NCBI GenBank assembly: GCA_016841605.1
Contig: JAENYV010000005.1
Coordinates: 70,103 to 134,102, forward strand
DNA: 64,000 nt
Direction of reading: 5' to 3'
Origin: Dethiobacter alkaliphilus
GTDB taxonomy: Bacteria; Bacillota; Dethiobacteria; DTU022; UBA8154
Of the stretch, positions 42,927-57,910 are shown piece by piece (the first letter of the stretch is position 1; the number at the start of each line of letters is the position of its first letter). The notes under the pieces were generated by a model that was given only the letters and a program-made list of their open reading frames with translations, ran no database searches and was not told the origin of the DNA. Both the position numbers and the translations under genes were made by a program.

Positions 42927-44030
42927 ATGCAGTGGCCGAAAGTAAAAGGGACTATTTTATTTTCTCCCCGGAACGGACAGCAGGAAGAGAAAGCATTGTT
43001 GCATGCCGCAAGACTTCTCAAGGAAGGTGAGTTACTGGCATTTCCCACGGAAACGGTCTACGGATTGGGGGCTGATGCCCTTGACCCCGTTGCTGTTTCC
43101 AGGATTTTTCGGGCTAAAGGGAGGCCTGCCGATAATCCCCTGATTGTACATATTGCCGGAATTGAGCAGGCTTCTGAACTGGTTCGGGAATTACCCCCGG
43201 AGGCAGCCCTTTTAGCCCGCTATTTTTGGCCGGGGCCTTTGACAATGGTTCTTCCGAAAAGTGAGAGGGTTCCGGATATTTGCACAGCAGGTCTTTCATC
43301 TGTAGCTTTACGGGTTCCCTCTCACCCGTTAGCCTTAAGGCTTATTCGTGCCGCAAAAGTGCCGATTGCTGCTCCAAGTGCCAATATTTCCGGCAGCCCC
43401 AGCCCGACGACTGCTGCCCATGTCCTTGCCGATCTGGCAGGTCGAATTGCTGCTGTGCTGGATGGTGGGGCATGTTCCGTCGGTCTCGAATCTACTGTTG
43501 TCAGCCTGCTCTCCTCTCCTCCTGCTATACTTCGTCCCGGATGGGTAACGCAAGAGATGCTGGAGAAGATTTTAAAGTGTTCCATTTTGGATCTTTCTAC
43601 TGTGGACAACAAAGACGATAAACAAGGACCCGCTCTTTCTCCGGGCATGAAGTATAGACATTATGCGCCCAAAGCCCCTCTTATTCTCGTAGAGGGAGAA
43701 GGAGACGACCAGCGCAGTCAGTTATTGGCTCTGACGGAAGGATTTGTCATGCAGGGACGTAAACTGGGTTTGATTCTCTCCCAGGAATCTAAGGCATTCT
43801 TCTCCGCACCTGTTGTGGAAATATTAGGATCAAGAAATGATCCGGCTACGGTGGCGAGGCGACTTTTTAATGCCTTGCGCAGGATGGATTATCAGGGAGT
43901 AGAAGTTATCGTAGTGGAAGGATTTGAGGAAAAAGAACTGGGGAAAGCTGTGATGAATCGTCTTAGAAAAGCGGCAGTAAAAATTATCGGCTCCGAAAGC
44001 AAAGGAGGAGTTTTATGGACAAAAAGCTAG
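42927..44030 (+). CDS. tsaC: Threonylcarbamoyl-AMP synthase (Sua5/YwlC type)
   Basis: Makes threonylcarbamoyl-AMP from threonine, bicarbonate and ATP for the t6A modification of tRNAs. 367 residues: the YrdC domain (FPTETVYGLGADA, KGRPADNPLIVH, APSANISGSPSPT) plus the C-terminal Sua5 domain (SPGMKYRHYAP). GGGGAGGGAAGG precedes the ATG. Its 3' end overlaps ywlE by 16 bases. The order tsaC-ywlE-rpiB-glyA is conserved across Firmicutes. Confidence 0.95.
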   Translation: MQWPKVKGTILFSPRNGQQEEKALLHAARLLKEGELLAFPTETVYGLGADALDPVAVSRIFRAKGRPADNPLIVHIAGIEQASELVRELPPEAALLARYFWPGPLTMVLPKSERVPDICTAGLSSVALRVPSHPLALRLIRAAKVPIAAPSANISGSPSPTTAAHVLADLAGRIAAVLDGGACSVGLESTVVSLLSSPPAILRPGWVTQEMLEKILKCSILDLSTVDNKDDKQGPALSPGMKYRHYAPKAPLILVEGEGDDQRSQLLALTEGFVMQGRKLGLILSQESKAFFSAPVVEILGSRNDPATVARRLFNALRRMDYQGVEVIVVEGFEEKELGKAVMNRLRKAAVKIIGSESKGGVLWTKS

Positions 44031-44518
44031 TCTTTCTCTTTGTCTGTAGTGGAAATACCTGCCGCAGTGTAATGGCGCAGGGACTTTTAACAAAAATTTG
44101 GGGGGAGCCTGGTGAGAAGGAAATCCAAGCTATAGTTTATTCAGCCGGAATGGAAACGATAGACGGTCTGAGTGCAACCGACGAAGCGCTGCAGGTTCTG
44201 TGGGATGAGGGAGTGGATTTAACATGCCATCGTTCCAGGAGAATAACTGATACTCTTGTTAGAGAAGCTGATTACATTTTTACCATGACAAAAAAGCAGA
44301 AAGAAACCCTGCTGGAACATTTTCCTGAAGCGTTTAAAAAAGTTTGGATGATAGCAGAATTTGCCTATGATGACAATTTTAAGGATGTTTTCGATCCTTT
44401 CGGTCTGGGATTGCAGAAGTACCGACAGACGGCAAAAGAGATTAAAGCGGCGATCCGGGAAATCGTAAACAAGCTGACGGTAAAACCTTCAGGGAAAATA
44501 GCGGATCAGGAAAATTAA
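44015..44518 (+). CDS. ywlE: Low-molecular-weight phosphatase, probable protein-arginine phosphatase
   Basis: 167 residues. The P-loop is FVCSGNTCRSVMA, with the nucleophile Cys near residue 11 and the catalytic Asp expected in DVFDPFG. The Thr in GNTCR, where tyrosine phosphatases usually have Ile, is the feature linked to phospho-arginine specificity in Bacillus YwlE. It would reverse McsB kinase marking. It overlaps the end of tsaC and is followed by rpiB. Confidence 0.9.
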   Translation: MDKKLVFLFVCSGNTCRSVMAQGLLTKIWGEPGEKEIQAIVYSAGMETIDGLSATDEALQVLWDEGVDLTCHRSRRITDTLVREADYIFTMTKKQKETLLEHFPEAFKKVWMIAEFAYDDNFKDVFDPFGLGLQKYRQTAKEIKAAIREIVNKLTVKPSGKIADQEN

Positions 44519-44595
44519 TTTTACGGCAGGAGATAGAGGAATTTAAGCGAATAATTGTTAAAAGCAAATGTCGTAATAGAAAAGGAGAAAGTCCC

Positions 44596-45045
44596 GTGCG
44601 CATTTCTCTTGCTTCAGATCATGCCGGATTTACATTAAAGGAAAAAATTAAAGAACACTTACAAGAAAATAAATATTTTTATCATGATTTCGGAACTTTT
44701 GATGAGGAGCCTGTCGATTATCCTGATTTAGCCTATCTGGCTGCTTCGGCAGTACAAAAAGGAGAGTATGAACGGGGTATCCTTGTCTGCGGAACCGGAA
44801 TAGGAGTCTGTATCGCAGCCAATAAACTGCAGGGAATTAGAGCGGCACATTGTGGTGAATCATATTCCGCACGGTGTTCAAGGGAGCACAATGATGCAAA
44901 CATTTTAACGCTCGGAGCCAGGGTAATTGGGGTTGGGATAGCGCTGGAAATTGTCCGGGTTTTTCTGGAAACCCCTTTTGCAGGAGGAAGGCATTTATTA
45001 AGATTGGAAAAAATATCTCGACTTGAGAAGTCAACGTTAAGTTAA
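44596..45045 (+). CDS. rpiB: Ribose-5-phosphate isomerase B
   Basis: 149 residues. Interconverts ribose-5-phosphate and ribulose-5-phosphate. Motifs: [35 protein letters not shown] with the catalytic Cys, and [18 protein letters not shown] start with AAAGGAGAAAG upstream. The last 20 residues are charged and variable. Confidence 0.96.
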
Positions 45046-45076
45046 CTGCTCAATAATCAGGCTGAAAATAATACTA

Positions 45077-45121
45077 AAAAGGGGGTGTAACCCGGTACTA
45101 AAGAAACCGGGTTTGACGATG
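45077..45121 (+). promoter_or_regulatory. Hairpin-spaced ribosome binding site of glyA with a GTG-TAA start-stop
   Basis: AAAAAGGGGGTG (45077-45087) is the only good Shine-Dalgarno, but it lies more than 30 bases from ATG 45119. Between them an 8-bp hairpin (AACCCGGT 45089-45096, ACCGGGTT 45106-45113) would bring it to about 8 bases effective spacing. GTG-TAA (45085-45090) right after the purine run forms a start-stop pair. Confidence 0.45.
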
Positions 45122-46381
45122 CCCGTTGGAGAGAGCGGCAGTAACAGCATTTTACAACTTTTTGATTCACAAATTGCTAAGGCTATTTTGGATGAACAGC
45201 GCAGGCAGCAGGAAAAGATCGTTTTGATCGCTTCGGAGAATTATGCCAGTAAAGCTGTTCTGGAAGCCCAGGGTTCCGTTTTGACAAATAAATATGCGGA
45301 AGGATATCCGGGTCAGAGGTATTACGGTGGTTGTGAGTATGTGGATATTGTGGAGGATCTTGCCCGTAAAAGGGCCCTGGAGCTTTTTGGAGCAGATTAT
45401 GTCAATGTCCAACCCCATGCCGGCGCTATTGCCAATCTGGCTGTGTACCTTGCAGTTTTAAAGCCTGGAGATACTGTTCTGGGGATGGATCTCAGTCATG
45501 GAGGGCATCTGACGCACGGTAGTCCCGTCAATATATCCGGAAAATATTATAACTTTTATTTCTACGGAGTAGATGATCGGACAGGCTATATCGATATGGA
45601 CAAGGTAGCGGAAATTGCCCGTAAAACTTCCCCGCGCCTGATTATTGCCGGAGCCAGTGCCTATTCCCGGATAATTGATTTTGCTGCCTTTGAAAAGGTT
45701 GCAACAGATGTAGGTGCTTACTTAATGGTGGATATGGCTCATATTGCCGGGCTGGTTGCGGCGGGACAACATCCTACTCCTATTCCTCATGCCCATTTTG
45801 TTACTACAACGACTCACAAGACTCTTCGTGGTCCAAGGGGAGGTATGATCTTCTGTCAGGCAGAATTTGCCAAACTGCTTAGTAAAGCTGTTTTCCCGGG
45901 GCTCCAGGGTGGACCTCTCATGCATGTTATCGCCGCTAAAGCTGTGGCCTTGAAGGAAGCGCAAACTTCTGAATTTATTGATTACCAGGAACAGGTTGTC
46001 AAAAACGCCCGGGTATTAGCTGATTCTCTTCAGGAATTGGGTTTTAATCTTGTTTCGGGCGGTACCGACAATCACCTTATTCTTGTTGACCTGAGAAGTA
46101 AAAAAATAAACGGGCGCGACGCTGAAAATTTACTTGATGAAGTAGGAATTTCAGTTAATAAAAATGCTATTCCCGGAGACCCGGAAAGGCCTGTTATTAC
46201 CAGTGGAATTCGGCTGGGAACTCCGGCTGTAACTTCCCGGGGAATGAAAGAGTCCGAGATGAAGCTTTTGGCGGAAATAATTAACGGGACCCTGGAAGGA
46301 AACCGGGATTCTGTTGCCATATCCCGTCTGAAAGGGAAGGTCAGACAATTGAGTTCTGCGTTTCCTATTTATGGAGTATAA
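45119..46381 (+). CDS. glyA: Serine hydroxymethyltransferase
   Basis: PLP enzyme converting serine and tetrahydrofolate to glycine and methylene-THF. 420 residues. Motifs: [51 protein letters not shown], and the PLP-binding Lys in [14 protein letters not shown] (about residue 229). ATG 45119 is chosen; TTG 45113 lies inside the leader hairpin. Translation start context is unusual (see the hairpin entry). comEB follows by 2 bases. Confidence 0.96.
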
Positions 46382-46383
46382 GC

Positions 46384-46839
46384 ATGAGACCTTCCTGGGA
46401 TAGTTACTTTCTTGAAATTGCCTGTGTTATTGCCGAGCGTTCAACTTGTCTGCGCAGAAAAGTCGGAGCTGTTCTGGTTAAAGATAAGCGCCTTTTAACA
46501 ACAGGGTATAACGGTGCCCCAACAGGAATAAGGCACTGCCTGGAAACCGGTTGCCTTCGGCAGATGCAAAATATTCCCTCCGGGGAACGTCATGAGCTCT
46601 GCCGGGGGCTTCATGCGGAGCAAAATGCTATTATTCAGGGCGCATTGCATGGGGTTTCTATTAAAGGTGCGGATCTTTATTGTACCCATCATCCTTGCTC
46701 TATGTGTGCAAAAATGCTGGTAAATGCCGGAGTTAGAAGAGTCGTCCTCAAGGAAAGCTATCCCGACCCCCTTGCCGGGGAAATTTTTCAGGAGGCAAGT
46801 GTGCAAGTTGAGGTTTTAGAAGATAAGTTAGATGTTTAA
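46384..46839 (+). CDS. comEB: dCMP deaminase (ComEB type)
   Basis: 151 residues. Zinc-dependent deaminase producing dUMP for thymidylate synthesis. The active site is HAEQNAI with the zinc His and catalytic Glu, and PCSMCAKML with the two Cys ligands; an N-terminal TGYNGAPTG is typical. It begins 2 bases after the glyA stop, so the genes are probably translated together; the shared link is one-carbon and thymidylate supply. Confidence 0.94.
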
Positions 46840-46921: not shown

Positions 46922-47986
46922 GTGCAAAGACGTGATTGCATGGAGAATAAAACTCTTTCCGGATGGAAAAAAGGGCTGGCTATTTCTCTGGCGCTGAGCA
47001 TCACTGCTGCGCTTTTTGTTTTTTTTATCTATTTTGAAGAAGATACTTTACTTAGTATATTGACACTTCGGGCCGATTTCCTTTTTTGGGCATGCGTCTT
47101 GTTTTTCTCCCTGTGGCTTATCGAAGGACTTCGTATTAAGTTACTGATAGCTGCTCTGGGAAATGAGAAGAAAATTTCTCTTGTTGATGCTGTTCAGGTT
47201 TTCCTGGTGACCTTTTTTTTTGCCTCTGTAACCCCCTTTGCTGCCGGAGAATGGCCCGCCCAAATCGCTGCTTTGCACCGCAAAGGTTTCTCCGTCGGAG
47301 AGGCTTCTGCAGTGACTCTTACACGCGCTTTTTTAACCAAGCTGATATTTACTATAACAGCTCTCCTTTTTTTGCTGTACAATCGTGAAGAACCGATACC
47401 TGCATTTGTAAACAAGGTGTTTATTTATGCTGTTTGTGTCTCGTTTTCCCTTAGTTTTCTTTTGTTTATCTTGTTATGGCGCCCTGCTTTATTGGAATGG
47501 CTGTTGCAAAAGCTTGGCGGTCGCTCCAGGTCCGATCCTTTTCCGGAAGGGAGCAAGGAAGAAAGCGCTGAGGGGGGCAGCAGAGCTAAGAAGATAATAA
47601 AATATCTTAAAGACGAAATTAATAAGTTTTCCTTAGCAACCAGCTGTTTTGGTCATTGGAAAGCGGGAACGCTTGCTGCTATTCTTTTTTTAACAGTGCT
47701 TTTTTGGTTTTGTTTCTTAAGTATCGGGCCGATTTTGCTCATGGGGTTAAATATGCCGGTTCCGTATTTAAAGACACTTGCCTGGCAGTTTGTCGTACAG
47801 CTCATACTGCCCTATATTCCTCTTCCCGGCGGAAGTGGTGTCGTGGAATTGGCCCTGGCCGGCCTTTTTAAATTTTTTGTCCCCTCTTCCGTGCTGGGTC
47901 TTTTTATTATTGCCTGGCGTTTCTTTACTTACTATCTCTTGCTGCTTTTTGGAGGTTTTGCCGCTCTGACGAGCCTTAAGTCCTAA
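46922..47986 (+). CDS. Lysylphosphatidylglycerol synthase transmembrane-region family protein (UPF0104)
   Basis: 354 residues with about eight hydrophobic segments. Family motifs: FFFASVTPFAAGEWPAQ in the first half and ILPYIPLPGGSGVVELALAG near the C-terminus. Members are lipid-flippase-like membrane proteins, mostly of unknown function, often near glycosyltransferases. The aminoacyl-transferase domain of MprF is absent. GTG 46922 has GGAGG 6 bases upstream; ATG 46940 is the alternative. It lies just before the decayed ATP synthase genes. Confidence 0.85.
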   Translation: MQRRDCMENKTLSGWKKGLAISLALSITAALFVFFIYFEEDTLLSILTLRADFLFWACVLFFSLWLIEGLRIKLLIAALGNEKKISLVDAVQVFLVTFFFASVTPFAAGEWPAQIAALHRKGFSVGEASAVTLTRAFLTKLIFTITALLFLLYNREEPIPAFVNKVFIYAVCVSFSLSFLLFILLWRPALLEWLLQKLGGRSRSDPFPEGSKEESAEGGSRAKKIIKYLKDEINKFSLATSCFGHWKAGTLAAILFLTVLFWFCFLSIGPILLMGLNMPVPYLKTLAWQFVVQLILPYIPLPGGSGVVELALAGLFKFFVPSSVLGLFIIAWRFFTYYLLLLFGGFAALTSLKS

Positions 47987-48120
47987 TTAAGAAAGGGAAA
48001 AAAAGCACAAGAAATTTCCCCTAAAAAAAAAGGACTTTTTTAAAACACTGTCGAATTTGTAGTTTAAGTTGAGTAAAGCCTAATAGGTTATCTGTTTGAG
48101 CACGCACAAGTGGGAATATT

Positions 48121-48533
48121 TAAAGGGATTAGCCCTGGTTGCACAGTTGAGGTTGGTTGATTTTGCCGGCAATTGTGGTTCTATTTGGCAAGCTGAAGGG
48201 TGTTTACAGGTTGACTTTCGGTACATTAATGGCTGTACTCAACTTTAATTTGCCGGCAAACACACTCCGGAAATCGGTCGGTTATGATCCCGCAAGAGCA
48301 CGCCTTTACGCTACCATCCCATTTATTTAATTCGTTATTTTTTATATTTATTCATTTTGCTGGTTGCTCTGAAAAGGGCCGATATGGATTTTATATGGGC
48401 TGTCGACGGTCTTTTAATCCGCAAGGCGGTTATTCTCGGAGGGAATCTCCTTAACACGCTGTCTCGATGGCGCGGCCCAGGGAAAACTATTGCAGCCGGG
48501 AGCTGGGAAAGGGGGGAGGAAGAGAAAAGTTAA
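48121..48533 (+). pseudogene. atpI: Decayed atpI (F-type ATP synthase assembly protein)
   Basis: Two frames together give a recognisable AtpI. The first (from about 48151) reads GWLILPAIVVLFGKLKGVYR, then LMAVLNFNL, then SVGYDPARARLYATIP, and stops at TAA 48328. In another frame it continues LLVALKRADMDFIWAVDG and VILGGNLLN to TAA 48533. Hydrophobic helices, the LNF motif and the DPARARLYA segment are as expected for AtpI. At least one stop and one frameshift break it, so it cannot make a full protein. It sits where F-type atp operons usually lie, after ywlE-rpiB-glyA. Confidence 0.75.
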
Positions 48534-48540
48534 GTTTTGC

Positions 48541-48859
48541 AAGGAAAGGAGGGGACATCAGTTTAAAACCCGTTTTAAACGGCCGTACATGCCGGCTCTA
48601 ACACTCTATTTAGTAATCTCTAATCTAGAGTGGTTTAGTCCATTTTCGCATGCTGACAGCAGACTTAAATACAACCTTCACCCTGACGGCCATAACTTTT
48701 TTTCTGGTGCAGTTTAATGGTTTTAATATGTTTTACAATTTTGCTCCTGTGCTGGTACCGGTTATCGGACACGTCTATTTTGATATCTTCACCAGTGTTA
48801 TACAATCATTTGTTTTTGTTATGCTCACGATGATCTTTGTCACTATGGCTATGGATTAA
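48541..48859 (+). pseudogene. atpB: Decayed atpB (F-type ATP synthase a subunit)
   Basis: One frame has MPALTLYLVISNLEWFSPF, like the LFxLISNxxGLxP stretch of a subunits. A shift near 48650 moves to the frame with TADLNTTFTLTAITFFLVQ, the hallmark PTADLNTT motif. It then jumps straight from NMFYNF to APVLVPVIGHVYFDIFT and ends SVIQSFVFVMLTMIFVTMA, so the region with the essential Arg is deleted. The N-terminal half is also lacking. It is a clear non-functional remnant lying between the atpI and c-subunit remnants. Confidence 0.85.
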
Positions 48860-48928
48860 GATTTGAAGGGCCTTCTTTTCCGGTAAGATGCGGGAAGAGA
48901 AGAGGGAAATTTCCTTTTATATACCTTT

Positions 48929-49440
48929 TTGCAGTTTGTATCGGATGGCGGTTTTGACTGGCTTGCCCGGCAAGATCCCATGGCACCCATCCTGGCTACC
49001 TTAGCGCTGGGGGCAGGTATCGCCATGATCGGGCCAATCGGGACGGCGATTGACAGGGTTATGCCGCCGCAAAGGGGCTGAAGCGACAGCGGTGAATACC
49101 AAGGCCATGAAACAAACAACCTTTGTCATGCTTCTCGGCCAGGCGGTTAAAGAGACTTCAGGGATATTTTGCCTGGTCATTGCTTTGCTCCTGCTTATGC
49201 CAATCCCTTGATCGACCGGAACGCTACCCATTATCCTTACGGCTTCCACCCTTGGCGTAGCGTTTAGCATGCTCTCTGCTTTTGGTCCCGGGGGTAGGAC
49301 AGGGGGTTATGCTGCCGGGAAAGTTGTGCAGGCTATCTCCTGCCGGCCGAAATATTCCGGGCCGATTATGCGGGTCTTTCTTGTCGGCCGAGTGATCAGC
49401 CGGTCTAACGTTATCTATGCATGGTTATACCATTTAAAGG
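48929..49440 (+). pseudogene. atpE: Decayed F-type c subunit with two hairpins (four helices)
   Basis: Reading across frames: MAPILATLALGAGIAMIGP, GTAIDRVM, then after a shift KGAEATAVNTKAMKQTTFVM, LLGQAVKETSGIFCLVIALL, then ANPLIDR in another frame, then ILTASTLGVAFSML, FGPG, GYAAGKVVQA and SGPIMRVFLVG. This is two c-subunit hairpins in tandem, like the duplicated Na+-type c1 of Acetobacterium. The ion-binding Glu (KETSG) survives in hairpin one; hairpin two has SRSNVIYA with no carboxylate. Several frameshifts and a stop break it. The 3' end runs into the V-ATPase E gene start. Confidence 0.85.
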
Positions 49441-49450
49441 ATGGTGAAAT

Positions 49451-50053
49451 ATGTCTATTCAAGTAAAAGAACTTATTGATAAGATTAAAAATGAAGGTGT
49501 CCTGGCTGCAGAGAATGAGGCGGAGAAGATTGTTGCTGAAGCCGAGGAAAAAGCAGCTCAGATTATCAAAGACGCTAAGGCCAAGGCTGAGTCGTATAAG
49601 GCTCAGGCCGAAAAAGAAATTGAGAAACAGGAAGCTGCCGGTAGGGAAGCATTAAAGCAGGCCGCTAGAGATGTTCTGATTGGCTTGGAAAAGCAAATCA
49701 TGAAACGATTCGATGCAGTAATAAGTGAATCTGCGGATACCGCGCTAACAACGTCTCTAACTGAGAAAATTATTACTGACCTGGTCCATGCGTGGGCTGA
49801 CAAAGGCGAAGCGGGCATCAAAGTTATCCTCTCCTCAAAAGATGCCAAAAAATTAAAAGACGCTTTAAAAGGGAAGTTGTCTCAGCGCTTTAAAGAGGGG
49901 GTAGAAATCGTTCCCTCTACAAAGTTTGCCAAAGGTTTTCGTATCGGTGGCAAAAGTGGGGCGCTGTACGATTTTTCCAAAGAAAGTATAGCGGAGGTTT
50001 TGGCAGAGGCTCTTTCCCCCGACCTTGCGGCAGCTTTAAAAGAGGCAATCTGA
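49451..50053 (+). CDS. atpE: V/A-type ATPase subunit E
   Basis: Peripheral stalk subunit, 200 residues. The first 90 residues form a long charged coiled coil rich in AEKEAEKI-like repeats, and the C-terminal half is the globular E domain (KVILSSKDAKKL, GFRIGGKSGALYDFS). AAAGGATGGTG lies 4-5 bases before the ATG, within the tail of the decayed c-subunit gene. It opens a seven-gene operon (E, DUF2764, A, B, D, I, K). No clear promoter was found directly upstream; it may lie within the pseudogenes. Confidence 0.9.
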   Translation: MSIQVKELIDKIKNEGVLAAENEAEKIVAEAEEKAAQIIKDAKAKAESYKAQAEKEIEKQEAAGREALKQAARDVLIGLEKQIMKRFDAVISESADTALTTSLTEKIITDLVHAWADKGEAGIKVILSSKDAKKLKDALKGKLSQRFKEGVEIVPSTKFAKGFRIGGKSGALYDFSKESIAEVLAEALSPDLAAALKEAI

Positions 50054-50072: not shown

Positions 50073-50618
50073 TTGAGATATAATTATTACACGGTAGCTG
50101 CCTTGGAAAATATTAGGCTCGATGAAAAAGTCCCCATCAGCGAGGACAAATTTTTGCAGTTTGCAGAAGACACCATAGATGCGAGAGATTATCAAGTCCT
50201 GCTCAAAAGCCGTTGGGGCCTCACTGAGCCAACAGGATTATCTTTCGCTGATCGGATTCTCTCCTGGGAAAAAGAACTACGGCTGGAATTGGCTAAAGCC
50301 CGGATTTCGAAAATACATTTCGATCCGGCTCCGGCGTTACCTTCCTCCGATGGTAATGACTCCTTACTGGAACAAGTGCGTGCAGTCATGGCTCTGGATT
50401 CGCCTTTGGATGCGGAACGTTTCCTGGATCATTTACGGTGGAGTTTTCTAGAGAATATGGGTGCTTGCCATTTTTTTGACCTTGAGGCTTTAGTCGTGTA
50501 CTACCTTAAACTTCAGCTCGCTTTGCGTCAGGAGAAATTTCAGGAGGAACTTGGTCGGGAGTCTTTTGAAAAGGCATACACTGCCGTAACTGATAGTTTC
50601 AATCTAACTACGCTATAG
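50073..50618 (+). CDS. DUF2764 family protein of V-type ATPase operon
   Basis: 181 residues, mainly helical. DUF2764 proteins occur between the E and A genes in the compact V-ATPase operons of spirochaetes, chlamydiae and Bacteroidetes, where no classical C subunit gene exists; it may therefore stand in for subunit C as rotor-stalk coupling. That role is inferred from position. TTG start with GGGAGG 8 bases upstream. Six bases separate it from the A subunit gene. Confidence 0.82.
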   Translation: MRYNYYTVAALENIRLDEKVPISEDKFLQFAEDTIDARDYQVLLKSRWGLTEPTGLSFADRILSWEKELRLELAKARISKIHFDPAPALPSSDGNDSLLEQVRAVMALDSPLDAERFLDHLRWSFLENMGACHFFDLEALVVYYLKLQLALRQEKFQEELGRESFEKAYTAVTDSFNLTTL

Positions 50619-50624
50619 AAATGG

Positions 50625-52376
50625 GTGAGGACGATAAACAAGGTAATTGGAGTTAGCGGAAATATGGTTTCTGTGGAATTTACCGGCGAAGCTACGATGA
50701 ACGAAGTCTGTTACATCCATTCCGGGGGAAAGAGATTAAAATCCGAGATCATCCGTATTAATGGTAATGTGGCTGATATCCAGGTCTTTGAGATGACTAC
50801 GGGAATTGGTGTAGGAGATGATGTGGAATTCACCGGTGAGTTATTGAGTGTGCAACTGGGCCCCGGTTTGCTGGGGCAGGTATATGATGGATTACAAAAC
50901 CCCTTACCCAAGCTGGCGGAAGAATGTGGATTTTTCCTGGACCGGGGCGTGTATCTCTCGGCTCTCAACGAGACTAAGGTGTGGGAATTTACCCCGTCCG
51001 TAGAAGCCGGGGCCAAAGTAGAAGCCGGTGACCAAATCGGTTTTGTCAAGGAAGGCATTTTTAACCATTGGATTATGGTACCGTTCCAGCTTGGAGGTGT
51101 TTTGACCGTTAAGCGTATTGTTGCGGCGGGAGGTTACACCGTTAATGACACTGTGGCGGAGGTTGAAGATGAAAAAGGAGACCTTCACCCCTTGACGATG
51201 GTTTTTAACTGGCCTGTTAAAAGGGCTGTTAAATGCTATGCAGAGCGTTTGAAACCATCAGAAACATTGATTACAAAATTAAGAATTATCGACACCTTTA
51301 TTCCTGTGGCTAAAGGCGGAACCTACTGCATCCCCGGTCCGTTTGGTGCCGGTAAAACGGTCCTGCAGCAGGTTACTTCCAAAAATGCCGAAGTGGATAT
51401 AGTTATCATCGCCGCTTGCGGTGAACGTGCCGGTGAGGTGGTGGAGACCATCAAAGAGTTCCCGGAGCTGCTTGACCCGAAAACCGGTCGTTCTTTAATG
51501 GAAAGGACCGTCATTATCTGCAATACTTCATCCATGCCGGTAGCAGCCCGGGAAGCTTCCGTCTATACAGCTGTTTCCATAGGCGAGTATTACCGCCAGA
51601 TGGGTCTAAACGTTCTTCTGCTGGCAGATTCAACATCACGGTGGGCCCAGGCGATGCGCGAAATGTCCGGCAGACTGGAAGAAATCCCCGGGGAGGAAGC
51701 ATTTCCCGCGTATTTGGAGTCCTTGATTGCTGCCTTCTACGAGCGGGCCGGCATTGTCCGTCTTAAGAACGGCGGTAATGGTTCGGTAACCATCGGCGGA
51801 ACTGTTTCGCCTGCCGGCGGCAATTTTGAGGAACCGGTGACCCAGGCTACCTTGAAGGTTGTGGGAGCCTTTCACGGCTTGTCGCGTCAGCGCTCCGACG
51901 CTCGCAAGTATCCTGCTATCCACCCCCTGGAGTCATGGTCAAAATACACGGGTATCATTGATGAGAAAAAAACTGAGTATGGTCGCTCTATTCTCTTTAA
52001 GGGCGACGAGGTGGACCAAATGATGAAAGTGGTTGGTGAAGAAGGGACCTCACTGGATGATTATATTATTTATCTCAAATCGGATTTACTGGACTTCGTT
52101 TATGTCCAGCAGAACTCGTTTGACCCCGTAGATGCTGCCGTTGAGCCTGAACGTCAACAGCATGTCTACGATATTCTCATGGATATCCTGACGGCCAAAT
52201 TAGATTTTGCCGGAAAAGATGAAGCCCGCACCTGGTTTAACAGGGTACGTCAGAACTTTCTTGACTATAATGGTAAAGAATGGAAGAGCGACGAGTTCAA
52301 TAAATTGGAAGCAACCATCTCTCAATTGCTGGCCGACAAGAAAATAGGTGCTGAAGCTTATGCCGAAGGTTTTTAG
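50625..52376 (+). CDS. atpA: V/A-type ATPase catalytic subunit A
   Basis: 583 residues. Nucleotide-binding catalytic subunit. The P-loop is [12 protein letters not shown] (about residue 240), followed by the conserved [36 protein letters not shown] and the non-homologous insertion typical of V/A-type A subunits before it. GTG 50625 is used; its binding site is weak, so translation may be coupled to the DUF2764 gene. Subunit B follows 29 bases on. Confidence 0.95.
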
Positions 52377-52405: not shown

Positions 52406-53704
52406 TTGCAAAAAGTATATAGTAAAATTGAATCAATCTCTGGAAACGTTATTACAGTGACTGCGACGGGAGTGCGTAATAAAGAGCTTGCCGTTGTGGA
52501 AACCAGGTATGGTCCGTCTTTGGCGGAAGTTATCCGTTTGAAACGTGATGAAGTGGCCCTGCAGGTGTTTAATGGCGGAAGGGGCGTATCCACCGGGGAT
52601 GAGGTCAGATTTATGGGCGAACCCATGAAGGTTTCCTTTTCCGATAACCTTTTAGGGCGGATCTTTGATGGTTCAGGACGACCACGGGATGGCGGCCCTG
52701 AACTTGCCGATACTTTGATTGAAATCGGCGGACCTTCCGTCAACCCCGCCAGGCGTATTGTTCCTCAAAACATGGTTCGTACCGGGATTCCCATGATCGA
52801 CGTTTTTAATTCGCTGGTGGAGTCGCAGAAGCTTCCTATCTTTTCTGTTTCGGGAGAACCTTATAACGAACTTCTGGCCAGGATTGCCCTGCAGGCTGAG
52901 GTTGACATTATTATTCTCGGCGGCATGGGTCTTAAATACGATGACTATCTTTTCTTTAAGGAGACCCTGGAAAAGGGCGGCGTTCTGTCCCGGACAGTCT
53001 TTTTTGTGCATACCGCTGCTGACCCTGTGGTGGAATCCCTGCTGGTGCCCGATGTTTCCCTGGCTGTCGCGGAAAATTTTGCTATTCACGGCAGGCGGGT
53101 ACTGGTGTTGCTGACGGATATGACCAACTTTGCCGATGCTATGAAAGAAATTGCTATTACCATGGAGCAGGTTCCGTCTAACCGTGGATACCCCGGGGAC
53201 CTTTATACCCAGTTAGCTTCCCGGTATGAAAAGGCTGTTGACTTTGAGGGGTCAGGTTCCATCACCATCCTTGGGGTAACGACCATGCCCGGCGATGATG
53301 TTACCCACCCGGTTCCGGATAACACCGGGTACATTACTGAAGGACAGTTTTATCTGCGTAACGGCCGCATCGAACCGTTCGGCTCCCTTTCCAGGTTAAA
53401 ACAGCAGGTAAACGGCAAGACCCGGCCGGATCATCGTGCTATAATGGACGGCATGATCAAATTGTACGCTGCTTACAAGGAGTCCCTGGAGAAGAAATCC
53501 ATGGGATTTAAAATGTCGGACTGGGACGAGAAACTTTTGACTTATGGCGAAATGTTTGAACGGGAGATGATGGATCTTTCCGTGAACATTCCCCTGGAGG
53601 CCGCCTTGGACAAAGGCTGGGAAATTATGGCCAGCTGTTTTGTGCCGGAGGAAACAGGGTTAAAGTCGGAACTAATTGACCAATACTGGACGAATAAGGT
53701 GTAG
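52406..53704 (+). CDS. atpB: V/A-type ATPase subunit B
   Basis: 432 residues. Non-catalytic nucleotide-binding partner of A. The P-loop is degenerate ([14 protein letters not shown]), as expected for B subunits; [39 protein letters not shown] and [17 protein letters not shown] are typical. TTG start with GGAGGAGGGT about 7 bases upstream. Four bases separate it from subunit D. Confidence 0.95.
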
Positions 53705-53707
53705 GCT

Positions 53708-54304
53708 ATGGCAAAAATAAAATTTAGCAAAAATGAATTAAAGAAACAAAAAGACGAGCTCAAAAGGTTCGAGCGCTATTTGCCGACACTGGTTATGAAG
53801 AAGCAGCTGCTGCAGATGGAGATACGGCAAGTTGAGGTGCAAATAGAAGAGAAACGCCTGGAGCGGGAAAACATGTACGCTGATCTGATGAGCTGGGTTC
53901 ATGTATTTGGAGAGGAGATAAATCTTGACGAGCTGGTCAAAATTCAAGAGGCAGATTTAAGCTCCACCAACATCGCCGGTGTGGATATCCCTGCTTTAAG
54001 GGAAATTATATATGAGAAGATTCCCTATGACCTTATGGCATACCCCCTGTGGGTAGATGCCGGTATCAAAAAGCTGAAAGAACTTATTTCTAGGGACATG
54101 GAGCTGTCTGTCCTGGAAAAGCAAGCAGACTTATTGGGAGATGAGCTGAGAGTTACCACACAACGAGTCAACCTGTTCGAAAAGGTAAAGATACCTGAAA
54201 CAAGGGAGAACATCCGGCTTATCAACATTTTCCTTGGCGATCAACAGACAGCAGCCGTTGTGCGGGGCAAAATGGCTAAAAGTAAACTGGTGAGGGGGGC
54301 GTAA
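53708..54304 (+). CDS. atpD: V/A-type ATPase subunit D
   Basis: 198 residues. Central rotor shaft. Long N- and C-terminal coiled coils (FSKNELKKQKDELKRFERYL; QRVNLFEKVKIPETRENIR, where the last motif is the family signature). It lies 4 bases after B and 4 bases before I, consistent with one tightly coupled transcript. The F subunit that normally accompanies D is not found. Confidence 0.92.
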   Translation: MAKIKFSKNELKKQKDELKRFERYLPTLVMKKQLLQMEIRQVEVQIEEKRLERENMYADLMSWVHVFGEEINLDELVKIQEADLSSTNIAGVDIPALREIIYEKIPYDLMAYPLWVDAGIKKLKELISRDMELSVLEKQADLLGDELRVTTQRVNLFEKVKIPETRENIRLINIFLGDQQTAAVVRGKMAKSKLVRGA

Positions 54305-54307
54305 GCG

Positions 54308-56251
54308 ATGATTATAGAGATGAAAAAAATATCTATGGTTGTCCAAACCAAAGATAAAGAATCAACTCTAGATTTACTCGGTGAGCTTGGCCTTGTCCAC
54401 CTGGAGGACTATCAGTGTTCTTCCCCGGAAGTTGAGAAAGCTATGGCCAAAATGAAAAGGGCGGAAACTGCCTATATCTTTTTGGCGGAATTCAAAACCA
54501 AGGAAGAACTGTCCCCACCATCTTTAAGTACGGTTGAGGCGGTAGAGGATGTGTTGCAGATCAGGGAGAATCTTCAGGCCGTTAGGGAGCGGGTAGAAAC
54601 TTTAGAGAAGAGAATTGCTGAACTGCAAAACTGGGGGGATTTTGATCCCGCAGACTTTAAATTTTTCGCGGACAGAGGCTACCATCTTAAAATCTACACT
54701 GTTTCCCGCGATAAAATTGAAAGAATGGATGATATCCAGGGTGACGTAGTGGTTTTAAGAGAGGACAAAAAAGGTCTTGCTTTTGCCCATATTACTAAAG
54801 AGCCTGTGACCCTGGAGGATTTTGACGAATTTATCATCCCTCCTCAAAGCCTCAGCGCTATGCAGGCAGAAAAAAATGAATTATCGAAGAAATTCGAGGA
54901 AATTAGTGGAAAAGCACAATATTATTATGGCCTCAGGCCTGCTCTTAAAGCCTATGTGGATAGTTTGGAATCGAATCTTAAGTATTGGATTGCTAAAGCA
55001 AACGCGATGGATGAAGAAAACCTCACTGCTATTGTTGGTTATCTTCCAGTTGACGAGGTGCAGGACGTACAAAGTTGGGCCCGCCAAAATTCTGTCGCCA
55101 TAGCCATAACGGATCCTGACCCGTCAGACCCCATACCCACTCTAGTCCGCAATCCCAAGTGGTTGGAAATTGTTAAACCTGTTTTTCAGTTTATGGGCAC
55201 GGTGCCCGGCTATAAAGAATTGGATATTAGCTTGTTTTTTCTTGTGTTTTTCACCATATTTTTTGCCATGATTATCGGGGATGCTGCCTATGGTGCCGTT
55301 TTTTTCCTAGGAGGATTAGGGTTAGTATTCTACAGCAAGTCCAAAAGAGAGAAGCCCCCTTTGGTAGCAACGCTTTTTACGTTACTTGGTGCGGCCACAG
55401 TAGTTTGGGGGAGTATAAACGGTTCCTGGTTTGGAAGTCCCGAACTGATCGAGGGAACTTTCCTGGAAAAACTGGTAATTCCCCAGTTAACGGAAGGGTT
55501 TAACTTTTACACCCCTGCCGGGGACTTTTATAAGGAATTAAGAAGTCAGGATGTCATTATGATCTTGTGTTTCATTATCGCTTTAATCCATCTGACTATC
55601 GCTCAAGTTTGGAATTTTTTACAAGCTCTAGGCCAACGTTCCCTGCAAGCTGTGGGTCAGGTTGGATGGATGCTCATAAACTTTGGTCTCTTCTACCTGG
55701 TTTTAGATATGGTGAGTAGTTTTAATCTTGATGAGGCTTTTGGCACGGGAGGTCTTATCTCGAGCGTAAGTTTAAATTTAATTTTTGTCGGATTAGGACT
55801 GGTGGTCCTTTTCGGCTCACAAGAGGGTAACTTTTTCAAAGGGATTCTTGGAGGCCTTGGAGGGTTGCCGAATACTGTCCTGAATAGCATTTCAGCTTTT
55901 GGTGATATCATTTCCTATGTAAGACTTTTCGCCATGGGGCTGGCTGGAGCCGAAATCGCGAGAGCTTTTAATGAGATGGGCGCTCCCCTTTTATCGGGCA
56001 AAACCTTTATTTTCGGAGTACTGATATTATTAATTGGGCACATTTTTAATTTCGTGCTATGCGCCTTGGGAGTGCTAGTTCACGGAATTCGTTTGAAAAT
56101 GCTGGAATTCTCCGGCCGTCTTGGTATACAGTGGTCCGGTCACGAGTATAACCCATTCAGCGTTCGGAGAGATATCGCAAGCTCAGCAGCGATACCTGCG
56201 GAAGAGCGAAAAATGAGCCCCTCCAGTGGTTTATCTCAAAACATGAGCTAA
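54308..56251 (+). CDS. atpI: V/A-type ATPase subunit I (membrane a subunit)
   Basis: 647 residues. Soluble N-terminal half with coiled coils, and a C-terminal half with seven to eight transmembrane helices. The essential Arg for ion translocation lies in ISYVRLFAMGLAGAEIA (about residue 539), and GHIFNFVLCALGVLVHGIRL is the following family motif. It forms the ion path with the K ring. It starts 4 bases after D, and K follows after 35 bases. Confidence 0.94.
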   Translation: MIIEMKKISMVVQTKDKESTLDLLGELGLVHLEDYQCSSPEVEKAMAKMKRAETAYIFLAEFKTKEELSPPSLSTVEAVEDVLQIRENLQAVRERVETLEKRIAELQNWGDFDPADFKFFADRGYHLKIYTVSRDKIERMDDIQGDVVVLREDKKGLAFAHITKEPVTLEDFDEFIIPPQSLSAMQAEKNELSKKFEEISGKAQYYYGLRPALKAYVDSLESNLKYWIAKANAMDEENLTAIVGYLPVDEVQDVQSWARQNSVAIAITDPDPSDPIPTLVRNPKWLEIVKPVFQFMGTVPGYKELDISLFFLVFFTIFFAMIIGDAAYGAVFFLGGLGLVFYSKSKREKPPLVATLFTLLGAATVVWGSINGSWFGSPELIEGTFLEKLVIPQLTEGFNFYTPAGDFYKELRSQDVIMILCFIIALIHLTIAQVWNFLQALGQRSLQAVGQVGWMLINFGLFYLVLDMVSSFNLDEAFGTGGLISSVSLNLIFVGLGLVVLFGSQEGNFFKGILGGLGGLPNTVLNSISAFGDIISYVRLFAMGLAGAEIARAFNEMGAPLLSGKTFIFGVLILLIGHIFNFVLCALGVLVHGIRLKMLEFSGRLGIQWSGHEYNPFSVRRDIASSAAIPAEERKMSPSSGLSQNMS

Positions 56252-56285: not shown

Positions 56286-56732
56286 ATGGTCGAGTATGGA
56301 TTAATGGGTATCGGTGCAGCACTTGCTATTTCTGCTTTTGGTTCCGCATTAGGTATCGGTGCAGCCGGGCAGGCAGTTATCGGGGCATGGAAGAGGGCTT
56401 TTATGCAGAATAAGCCGGCGTCGTTTATGTTGTTGGCTTTTACAGGTTTCCCTCTTTCCCAGACTTTTTACGGATTGATTTTAATGAATACCATCGTGGC
56501 ATCGGCTCATCTTTTGGAAAGCGGGGCAATACTTGGCATCGGTATTTTTGGCGGCATGGCCATCGGAGCTTCCGCCTATGCGCAGGGTGTGGCCGGTGCC
56601 GGCGCGGTTGACGCTTATGGAGAAACGGGTAAAGGGTTCACTAACTATGTTTTGGTTCTGGGTGTCATAGAATCCGTTGCTTTGCTGGCAATGGTGTTTT
56701 TGATGACTATCATCAACAGCCTGGTAGCTTAA
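56286..56732 (+). CDS. atpK: V/A-type ATPase proteolipid subunit K
   Basis: 148 residues, four transmembrane helices in two hairpins. The ion-binding Glu is 129 (LGVIESVALL) in hairpin two; hairpin one has none, as in V-type rings. Gln59 (PLSQTFYG), Gln100 (SAYAQGVAG) and Ser/Thr near 58-60 correspond in spacing to the Na+ ligands of Enterococcus hirae NtpK (Gln65, Gln110, Glu139), so Na+ coupling is likely. AAAGGAGCG precedes the ATG. A terminator shared with the convergent ldh gene follows. Confidence 0.94.
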   Translation: MVEYGLMGIGAALAISAFGSALGIGAAGQAVIGAWKRAFMQNKPASFMLLAFTGFPLSQTFYGLILMNTIVASAHLLESGAILGIGIFGGMAIGASAYAQGVAGAGAVDAYGETGKGFTNYVLVLGVIESVALLAMVFLMTIINSLVA

Positions 56733-56768: not shown

Positions 56769-57731
56769 TTACATGGCAGGAACAAAGTTTCCTGCCATTT
56801 TTATTTGTTGAGGAATTGACTCCCTAACAATATGGGCTGAGTTAAGAAACTGTTCTTTTTCTTCCGCGTCCATTTCTAAAGGTAGGACACGTTCCACTCC
56901 GTGCCTGCCTATAATGCAAGGAAAACTAAGGTAAAGATCGTTAATTCCATAGATATTTTCCAGAAGTGTTGAAACAGTGAGGACAGAATGTTCATCTCGT
57001 AAAATGCTTTCCACGATACGTCGTACAGCAAGTGATATTGCGAAATATGTAGCACCTTTACCTTGAATAATTTCATAAGCAGCTTGGCGTACATTGAAAG
57101 AAATTTCTTCTAGTCCTTGTTGTGAACAAAGATCATGGCAGTTTGCACAAAAATGTTCTATAGAAACTCCTGCCACATTAGCCGTACTCCAAAGGGGAAC
57201 TTCGGAATCGCCATGTTCGCCCACGATATAAGCATGCATATTTCTGGGATCCAGTTTACAGCGGGCACTTAGCAGGTAACGAAAACGGGAGGTGTCAAGG
57301 ACGGTTCCGGAACCAAAAACTTTTGAACTTGGCAGTCCTGAAACTTTCCAGGCAATATAAGACATGATATCCACAGGATTGGTGACGATTATCAAAATGG
57401 CTTCTTTTGTATAAGTAAGAATATCATTAACAATTTGAGTAATAATACGTGCATTAATTTCAACAAGTTCAAGGCGCGTTTGGCCGGGTTTTTGGGGAGC
57501 ACCTGCAGTAATAATTACAATATCGGCATTGCTGCATTCCTCATAACCTCCTGATTTTATTGAAGCCGGAGGAATAAATGAGGCGCAATGGTTGAGATCC
57601 ATGGCCTCAGTGCGGGCTTTTTCCTCAATTTTATCGATTAAAACAATTTCTTGAGCTGTACCTCCGACCATAAGTGCATATGCTGCTGTCGAACCAACAA
57701 GACCGGCCCCAATGATTGCAACTTTTGCCAT
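56769..57731 (-). CDS. ldh: L-lactate dehydrogenase
   Basis: 320 residues on the minus strand. NAD-binding GAGLVGSTAAYAL at the N-terminus, substrate loop GAPQKPGQTRLELVEIN, TNPVDIMSYIAW, SGTVLDTSRFR and the catalytic His in GEHGDSEVP. Gln in GAPQKPG, where malate dehydrogenases have Arg, favours lactate. I took ATG 57731; GTG 57740 is an alternative. It converges on the V-ATPase operon and its end overlaps that operon's terminator. Confidence 0.9.
   Translation of the reverse strand: MAKVAIIGAGLVGSTAAYALMVGGTAQEIVLIDKIEEKARTEAMDLNHCASFIPPASIKSGGYEECSNADIVIITAGAPQKPGQTRLELVEINARIITQIVNDILTYTKEAILIIVTNPVDIMSYIAWKVSGLPSSKVFGSGTVLDTSRFRYLLSARCKLDPRNMHAYIVGEHGDSEVPLWSTANVAGVSIEHFCANCHDLCSQQGLEEISFNVRQAAYEIIQGKGATYFAISLAVRRIVESILRDEHSVLTVSTLLENIYGINDLYLSFPCIIGRHGVERVLPLEMDAEEKEQFLNSAHIVRESIPQQIKMAGNFVPAM
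56773..56803 (+). terminator. Terminator of the V-ATPase operon, inside the ldh 3' end
   Basis: 10-bp stem ATGGCAGGAA/TTCCTGCCAT followed by TTTTTAT. The stem covers the last codons of the convergent lactate dehydrogenase gene. Confidence 0.8.
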
Positions 57732-57910
57732 AAAATCCACATCCTATTTTATTTCAAATATATAAAGTACATTTAACATCAGTACAGTAAATATGTCCTC
57801 TTTCCTATAAATTTATTCCGAAGTGATTAGCAGATCATAATCCAAAAAATAGGAATGTTTTAACAAACTGTTGACTATAATATATTAAAGCAGTTTACTT
57901 AAAGGGGTTT

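Follow-up and report, generated by a model that had tools for sequence, protein, structure and literature searches.

The damaged F0 genes that precede a complete V-type ATPase operon in Dethiobacter alkaliphilus are very probably the scar of an in situ swap, in which an F-type operon gave way to a V-type operon of the spirochaete kind. The window (i.e. the whole 64,000-nucleotide stretch of DNA that was analysed) was compared with other genomes of the class; the genomes used are drafts, mostly metagenome-derived. The original prediction, that the window holds remnants of an F-type ATP synthase operon, was upheld, but it had missed a horizontally moved V operon in place of the lost part and the c1-type identity of the c subunit gene.

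The remnants were identified by profile searches of all reading frames and by tblastn, using intact proteins of relatives as queries and the window as target. One frame (48629-48856) matched the Pfam ATP-synt_A profile above cut-off (E 1.4e-8) and the NCBIfam subunit A profile (2e-10), and two separate frames matched subunit c profiles (NCBIfam PRK07159, approximately 6e-8 each; PF00137, 8.8e-5 for one of the two), such that significant matches were obtained for both subunits a and c. Stronger matches were obtained with the intact proteins of relatives. On the forward strand, these located an atpI relic without an N-terminus (48154-48476; 1e-23, spread over two frames, 54/107 residues identical), an atpB (i.e. 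subunit a) relic (48583-48856; 8e-23) and an atpE1 relic of a 4-helix c subunit (48917-49436; 1.8e-50), the last spanning 170 of 183 residues at 70% identity (119/170) to the protein of relative G012. Only three genes had been predicted; these stand, with the addition of a fourth, weak atpZ fragment (48096-48207, forward strand; 3e-3, 45% identity over 31 aa). None of 200 dinucleotide shuffles of the region reached the real scores of atpZ, atpI, atpB or atpE1, with the margin being narrow for atpZ (26.9 bits versus a shuffle maximum of 23.9 bits). The predicted presence of atpI, atpB and atpE remnants was thus borne out.

Lesions were mapped by frame-aware alignment. The N-terminal part of atpI is lost and the frame changes near 48322. 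In atpB, about 79 N-terminal codons are missing, the frame changes at 48628 and an in-frame deletion of 48 codons has removed the SFRLFGN motif, including the essential Arg. The atpE1 relic contains approximately six small frameshifts and its 3' end is cut off about nine codons early. These alignments contained the lesions that had been named for atpI, the Arg region of atpB and the c subunit, with the correction that the shifts of the c subunit fall within a single 4-helix (i.e. two-hairpin) protein. Several independent disabling lesions were taken as the criterion for a pseudogene, and this criterion was met. Several of the lesions are single-base changes, as would be expected if the genes were intact and the lesions were errors of sequencing or assembly. 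This explanation is scarcely credible, as E2-F-H-A-G-D-C are missing altogether, atpB carries the 48-codon deletion and the adjacent 7.3-kb V operon is free of any frame error. The corresponding site also holds relics in G001 and G002, congeners whose genomes were assembled separately, indicating that the relics are not sequencing errors, as had been predicted; for the operon as a whole, the error explanation was refuted.

The ancestral state of the locus is preserved in relatives. In the window, the left flank consists of tsaC-ywlE-rpiB-glyA-dcd (42927-46839, forward strand; dcd encodes dCMP deaminase), identified from open reading frames and found in the same order beside both F and V operons of relatives, followed by flip (46922-47986, forward strand), which encodes a 354-aa polytopic membrane protein and in much of the family immediately precedes the ATPase genes. 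Four other members of this family (i.e. G003, G004, G010 and G012) have an intact operon, Z-I-B-E1-E2-F-H-A-G-D-C, at the corresponding address, preceded by tsaC-ywlE-rpiB-glyA-dcd-flip. The stretch examined begins within glyA for G004 and G010, in which flip was not detected; in G012, flip was only partly detected and ywlE was not detected. The location of this operon after glyA-dcd in all four relatives supports the claim that the remnants lie at the ancestral address. The intact F operons of relatives at this address are referred to as class N. The 2-helix c gene and the F1 genes that should follow the relic are present in these four genomes and absent from the window, where the V operon is found instead.

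A V-like subunit, c1, is a member of the hybrid F/V rotor of Acetobacterium woodii. The intact E1 protein of the relatives (183 aa, two hairpins) matched A. woodii c1 (PDB 4bem chain J, 182 aa) from end to end with an E-value of 1.2e-50, and by eye it has Na+-type residues (i.e. Gln in helix 1 and Glu-Thr in helix 2). As E1 is homologous to this c1 over nearly its whole length, the relic probably derives from a hybrid-rotor F operon that would have been coupled to Na+; both the coupling and the mixed ring are inferred from sequence. A hybrid-rotor c1 has also been reported from Clostridium aceticum (PMC7911925).

A search for another intact F-type operon in the genome of D. alkaliphilus found a separate, unrelated one on contig C13. 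The relics do not derive from this operon: its a and c subunits failed to match them (best E 0.08), whereas the class N subunits of relatives did match. In trees, class N operons formed one clade (100/100), apart from the C13 operon and from the other F operons of G001 and G002. A gamma query from the class N operon detected only the unrelated C13 gamma (39-54%) in the genome, without evidence of a further copy of the class N F1 part. The prediction that the intact remainder is gone holds in that this gamma search found no second F1 copy, but the genome retains an F-type enzyme, and the C13 operon is inferred also to serve the cell. The order of the C13 operon is I2-I-c-b-a-c-b-delta-alpha-gamma-beta-epsilon, with atpE-atpF present as two near-identical copies flanking atpB (L006, 8437-9342 and 10191-11209); the copies are 99.8% and 91% identical in DNA, reflecting either a recent duplication or an assembly artefact.

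Homology to E1 ends near codon 174 (at about 49436), and the junction between atpE1 and the leader of the V operon lies at 49425-49437. A complete V operon, E-C-A-B-D-I-K, starts at 49451 on the forward strand and consists of subunits E (49451-50053; assigned by position and by homology to spirochaete operons), C of the DUF2764 family (50073-50618; PF10962, 3e-10), A (50625-52376; Pfam), B (52406-53704; Pfam), D (53708-54304; PF01813), I (54308-56251; PF01496) and the proteolipid K (56286-56732; PF00137); subunit K had no match among PDB sequences. The operon ends 36 bases before ldh (56769-57740, reverse strand). Downstream of the intact F operon of G003 lie ald, ldh and two small open reading frames; ldh and both small frames recur in the window, and hence both flanks of the swap are known.

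The gene order and the DUF2764-type C subunit constitute the Spirochaetota pattern, which served as the criterion of membership and was met. The nearest A subunits outside the class were those of Spirochaetota, with identities of up to 73%. In a tree with a distant outgroup, the V sequences of Bacillota formed one clade nested within Spirochaetota, with SH-aLRT values of 83-90 at the key forks. The operon is assigned to the spirochaete kind on these sequence comparisons, which provide only moderate support for the donor and direction of transfer.

Horizontal movement of the V operon was assessed by comparing identities at four-fold sites, an approach that presumes similar codon constraint and for which rpoB and the F alpha and beta genes served as controls. 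Between the window's genome and G009, a member of another genus, identity was 82% for the V operon but 34% for the adjacent housekeeping genes, 38% for rpoB and 32% for the adjoining ldh. The corresponding values against the congener G001 were 71% for the V operon, 51% for housekeeping genes and 52% for rpoB. For the alpha and beta genes of the four class N relatives, identities (36-45%) were close to those of their rpoB genes (32-36%). The V genes are thus far more alike between genera than are rpoB, the housekeeping genes or ldh, indicating that the operon moved horizontally. The elevated identity of the V operon stops between K and ldh, with no such tract seen in the flanks, and hence the V operon was the unit that moved. 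Carriers of the V operon occupied three separate places in the rpoB tree of the family. One criterion for in situ displacement was an occupant whose history differs from that of its neighbours, and this was met. As this V type is found at the address in three families of the class, the V operon could alternatively be an old, vertically inherited resident, with the F0 relics stemming from a later F invader that failed. In its simple form this alternative was refuted by the four-fold-site comparison, in which no neighbouring gene approached the V genes in similarity between genera; the scattering of V carriers on the trees, and relics set in precisely the surroundings of the intact operon, upstream promoter-like box included, also leave it very improbable.

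The replacement of an F operon by a moved V operon is envisaged as follows. An ancestor carried an F operon, atpZ-I-B-E1-E2-F-H-A-G-D-C with an A. woodii-type c1, after glyA-dcd-flip, as is evident from the relatives. A moved V operon replaced the stretch from the 3' end of E1 to just before ldh, a step shown by the flanks, the junction and the incongruent divergence. The leftover atpZ-I-B-E1 subsequently decayed, only recently in this species as its still protein-like substitution pattern shows. Flank-mediated homologous recombination is inferred to be the likeliest route.

Dating of these steps rests on the E1 relic. Codon-position identities between the relic and the intact gene of G012 were 78/86/42% as compared to about 73/87/41% for intact pairs, and protein identity was at the level of intact pairs. 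As the pattern is still that of a working gene, the E1 relic died recently. The relics of G001 and G002 are more decayed, with different large parts of the stretch lost in each, from which it is inferred that the E1 relic of D. alkaliphilus would have died after the split from G001. All three congeners share the E1-V breakpoint to the nucleotide, suggestive of one old event. A common breakpoint combined with a fresh relic in D. alkaliphilus requires either that alleles were exchanged within the genus or that there was a tandem stage. A history of one V insertion in the genus, with the relics decaying steadily thereafter in all three species, is at odds with the fresh substitution pattern. The facts may be reconciled if the junction arose once and then spread in the genus by flank recombination, or if there was an interval with F and V operons in tandem.

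One such route, in which the V operon landed between an intact F operon and ldh and a later deletion fused atpE1 to the V leader, is possible but is considered unlikely. It would account for a relic that is fresh despite the greater age of the V operon in the genus, and G008 does have an F operon followed directly by another V operon at the address. Conversely, an identical breakpoint in three species would demand either recurrence or a single deletion combined with exchange; an F and a spirochaete-type V operon do not stand in tandem in any genome of the genus; and swaps in two pairs of genomes described below (G036/G037 and G064/G065) left no trace of the other operon. The end result of a tandem stage is the same replacement, reached by a different route.

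The consensus of sigma-H promoters comprises AGGA and GAAT boxes separated by 17-18 nt. A sigma-H-like box (AGGA-N18-GAAT), probably the old atp promoter, was found at 48029-48056 on the forward strand by sequence match, its function being inferred. AGGA-17/18-GAAT occurs at the corresponding position before the atp genes at all four intact and all three relic loci, with small variations (e.g. AGGG or GAAA in some relatives). No further copy was found elsewhere in these seven loci, and the pattern was absent from the V loci of G009, G015 and KA22; the search pattern was written after the alignment had been seen. A scan for generic sigma-70 promoters and terminators yielded nothing above chance. 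In the absence of expression data, it is inferred that transcription of the V operon now probably starts at the old atp promoter. This box is retained, and in each of the three congeners relics still separate it from the V genes, so the relic stretch could conceivably serve the V operon as a leader or regulatory RNA. This reading is very improbable given that no Rfam family was matched at E-values up to 0.1, that G001 and G002 lack different large portions of the stretch and that the identity pattern is that of former protein genes.

Occupancy of this address was surveyed in 98 genomes of the class, with occupants being assigned by best tblastn match and not by separate trees. All 12 carriers of the spirochaete-type V operon have it after glyA-(upp)-dcd-(flip); in G015, it is displaced downstream by about 12 kb and lies ahead of ldh. 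A different V operon occupies the address in 26 genomes and an F operon in nine, seven of the latter being class N-like and two of another kind, one of which is then followed by a V operon. The class N-like operons of G093 and G097 lack a 4-helix c gene. No ATPase operon was found at the address within the stretch examined in four of the surveyed genomes. Both flanks are syntenic, at 78-81% nucleotide identity, within two same-genus pairs (i.e. G036/G037 and G064/G065), and between these flanks one member of each pair has the other V operon and its partner the spirochaete-type V operon. The second criterion for in situ displacement, conserved neighbours on both sides with a different operon between them, was thereby met. 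A tree of glyA and dcd implied at least 12 changes of occupant. The address is envisaged as a standing exchange site, which across the class holds either an F type or one of two V types. On present evidence it is probable, without being firmly established, that whole F operons (hybrid-rotor or ordinary) and two kinds of V operon are swapped at this one address repeatedly, even within genera, with the newcomer placed on the resident promoter, and that what survives in the window are the remains of a recent change from F to V.

Several other arrangements were observed during the survey. In G008, an F operon is followed directly by an other-type V operon, giving two rotary ATPases in tandem (L119, contig C114, about 1.9-18 kb). 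The F operon at the address in G068 has two consecutive 4-helix c genes followed by a 2-helix c gene (L200, contig C200, 4083-5500). Beside its class N operon, G010 has a second F-type operon (L121, contig C74, about 9.5-16.4 kb) of the order beta-epsilon-a-c-b-alpha-gamma, as in N-ATPases. In G015, a carrier of the spirochaete-type V operon, F genes appear broken (L129, contig C181, about 0.1-3.9 kb), with a subunit a fragment containing an internal TAG and beta in two pieces. The 99%-complete genome of G009 (L016), also with a spirochaete-type V operon, yielded matches to neither subunit a nor gamma of the F type, and on this gene content G009 seems to live on a V-type enzyme alone. Directly before the V operons of G009 (L016, 4626-5882) and G015 (L028, 5096-6415) lie mutually related MFS transporter genes with the look of oxalate/formate antiporters.

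ATP synthase generally counts as belonging to the stable core of a genome, and deep phylogenies make use of its trees. That ATPase genes can be transferred horizontally is well known. In the present class of anaerobes, complete rotary ATPases are exchanged at a single address, with a fossil revealing which operon displaced which. Two questions become testable: when and why cells change between F and V types, perhaps along with the ion to which the enzyme is coupled, and whether homology in the flanks, together with a resident promoter, steers the swap. The literature searched contained no earlier exchange of F for V at one address in bacteria and no fossil of a displaced operon, and a bacterial F-to-V swap with such a fossil appears to be new.

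The closest precedent is the in situ displacement of atp operons, A-type versus V-like, between conserved neighbours in Thaumarchaeota (Wang et al. 2019, PMC6863869). As in the present case, two kinds of whole ATPase operon were swapped between vertically inherited resident neighbours; it differs in concerning archaea and A-type versus V-like enzymes, with no F-type, and no mention of a fossil of the displaced operon was found in it. The ancestral F operon resembles that of the hybrid-rotor Na+ F1FO-ATP synthase of A. woodii in having a 4-helix c1 (182-183 aa) after atpB with a 2-helix c beside it, but the window holds only a relic, and in the intact relatives there is a single 2-helix c gene and the operon opens with atpZ. 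A V-type ATP synthase with the gene order GIKECFABD has been described for D. alkaliphilus (PMC5609068); by gene order it resembles the other V operon found at this address in 26 genomes, the A subunit of which is only 40-47% identical to that of the window. The operon of the window instead shares its gene order (E-C-A-B-D-I-K) and subunit set with the V-ATPase operons of spirochaetes, with identities of up to 73% for subunit A and about 80% for subunit B, but it resides in a class of Bacillota, at the canonical atp address and on its own long stem.
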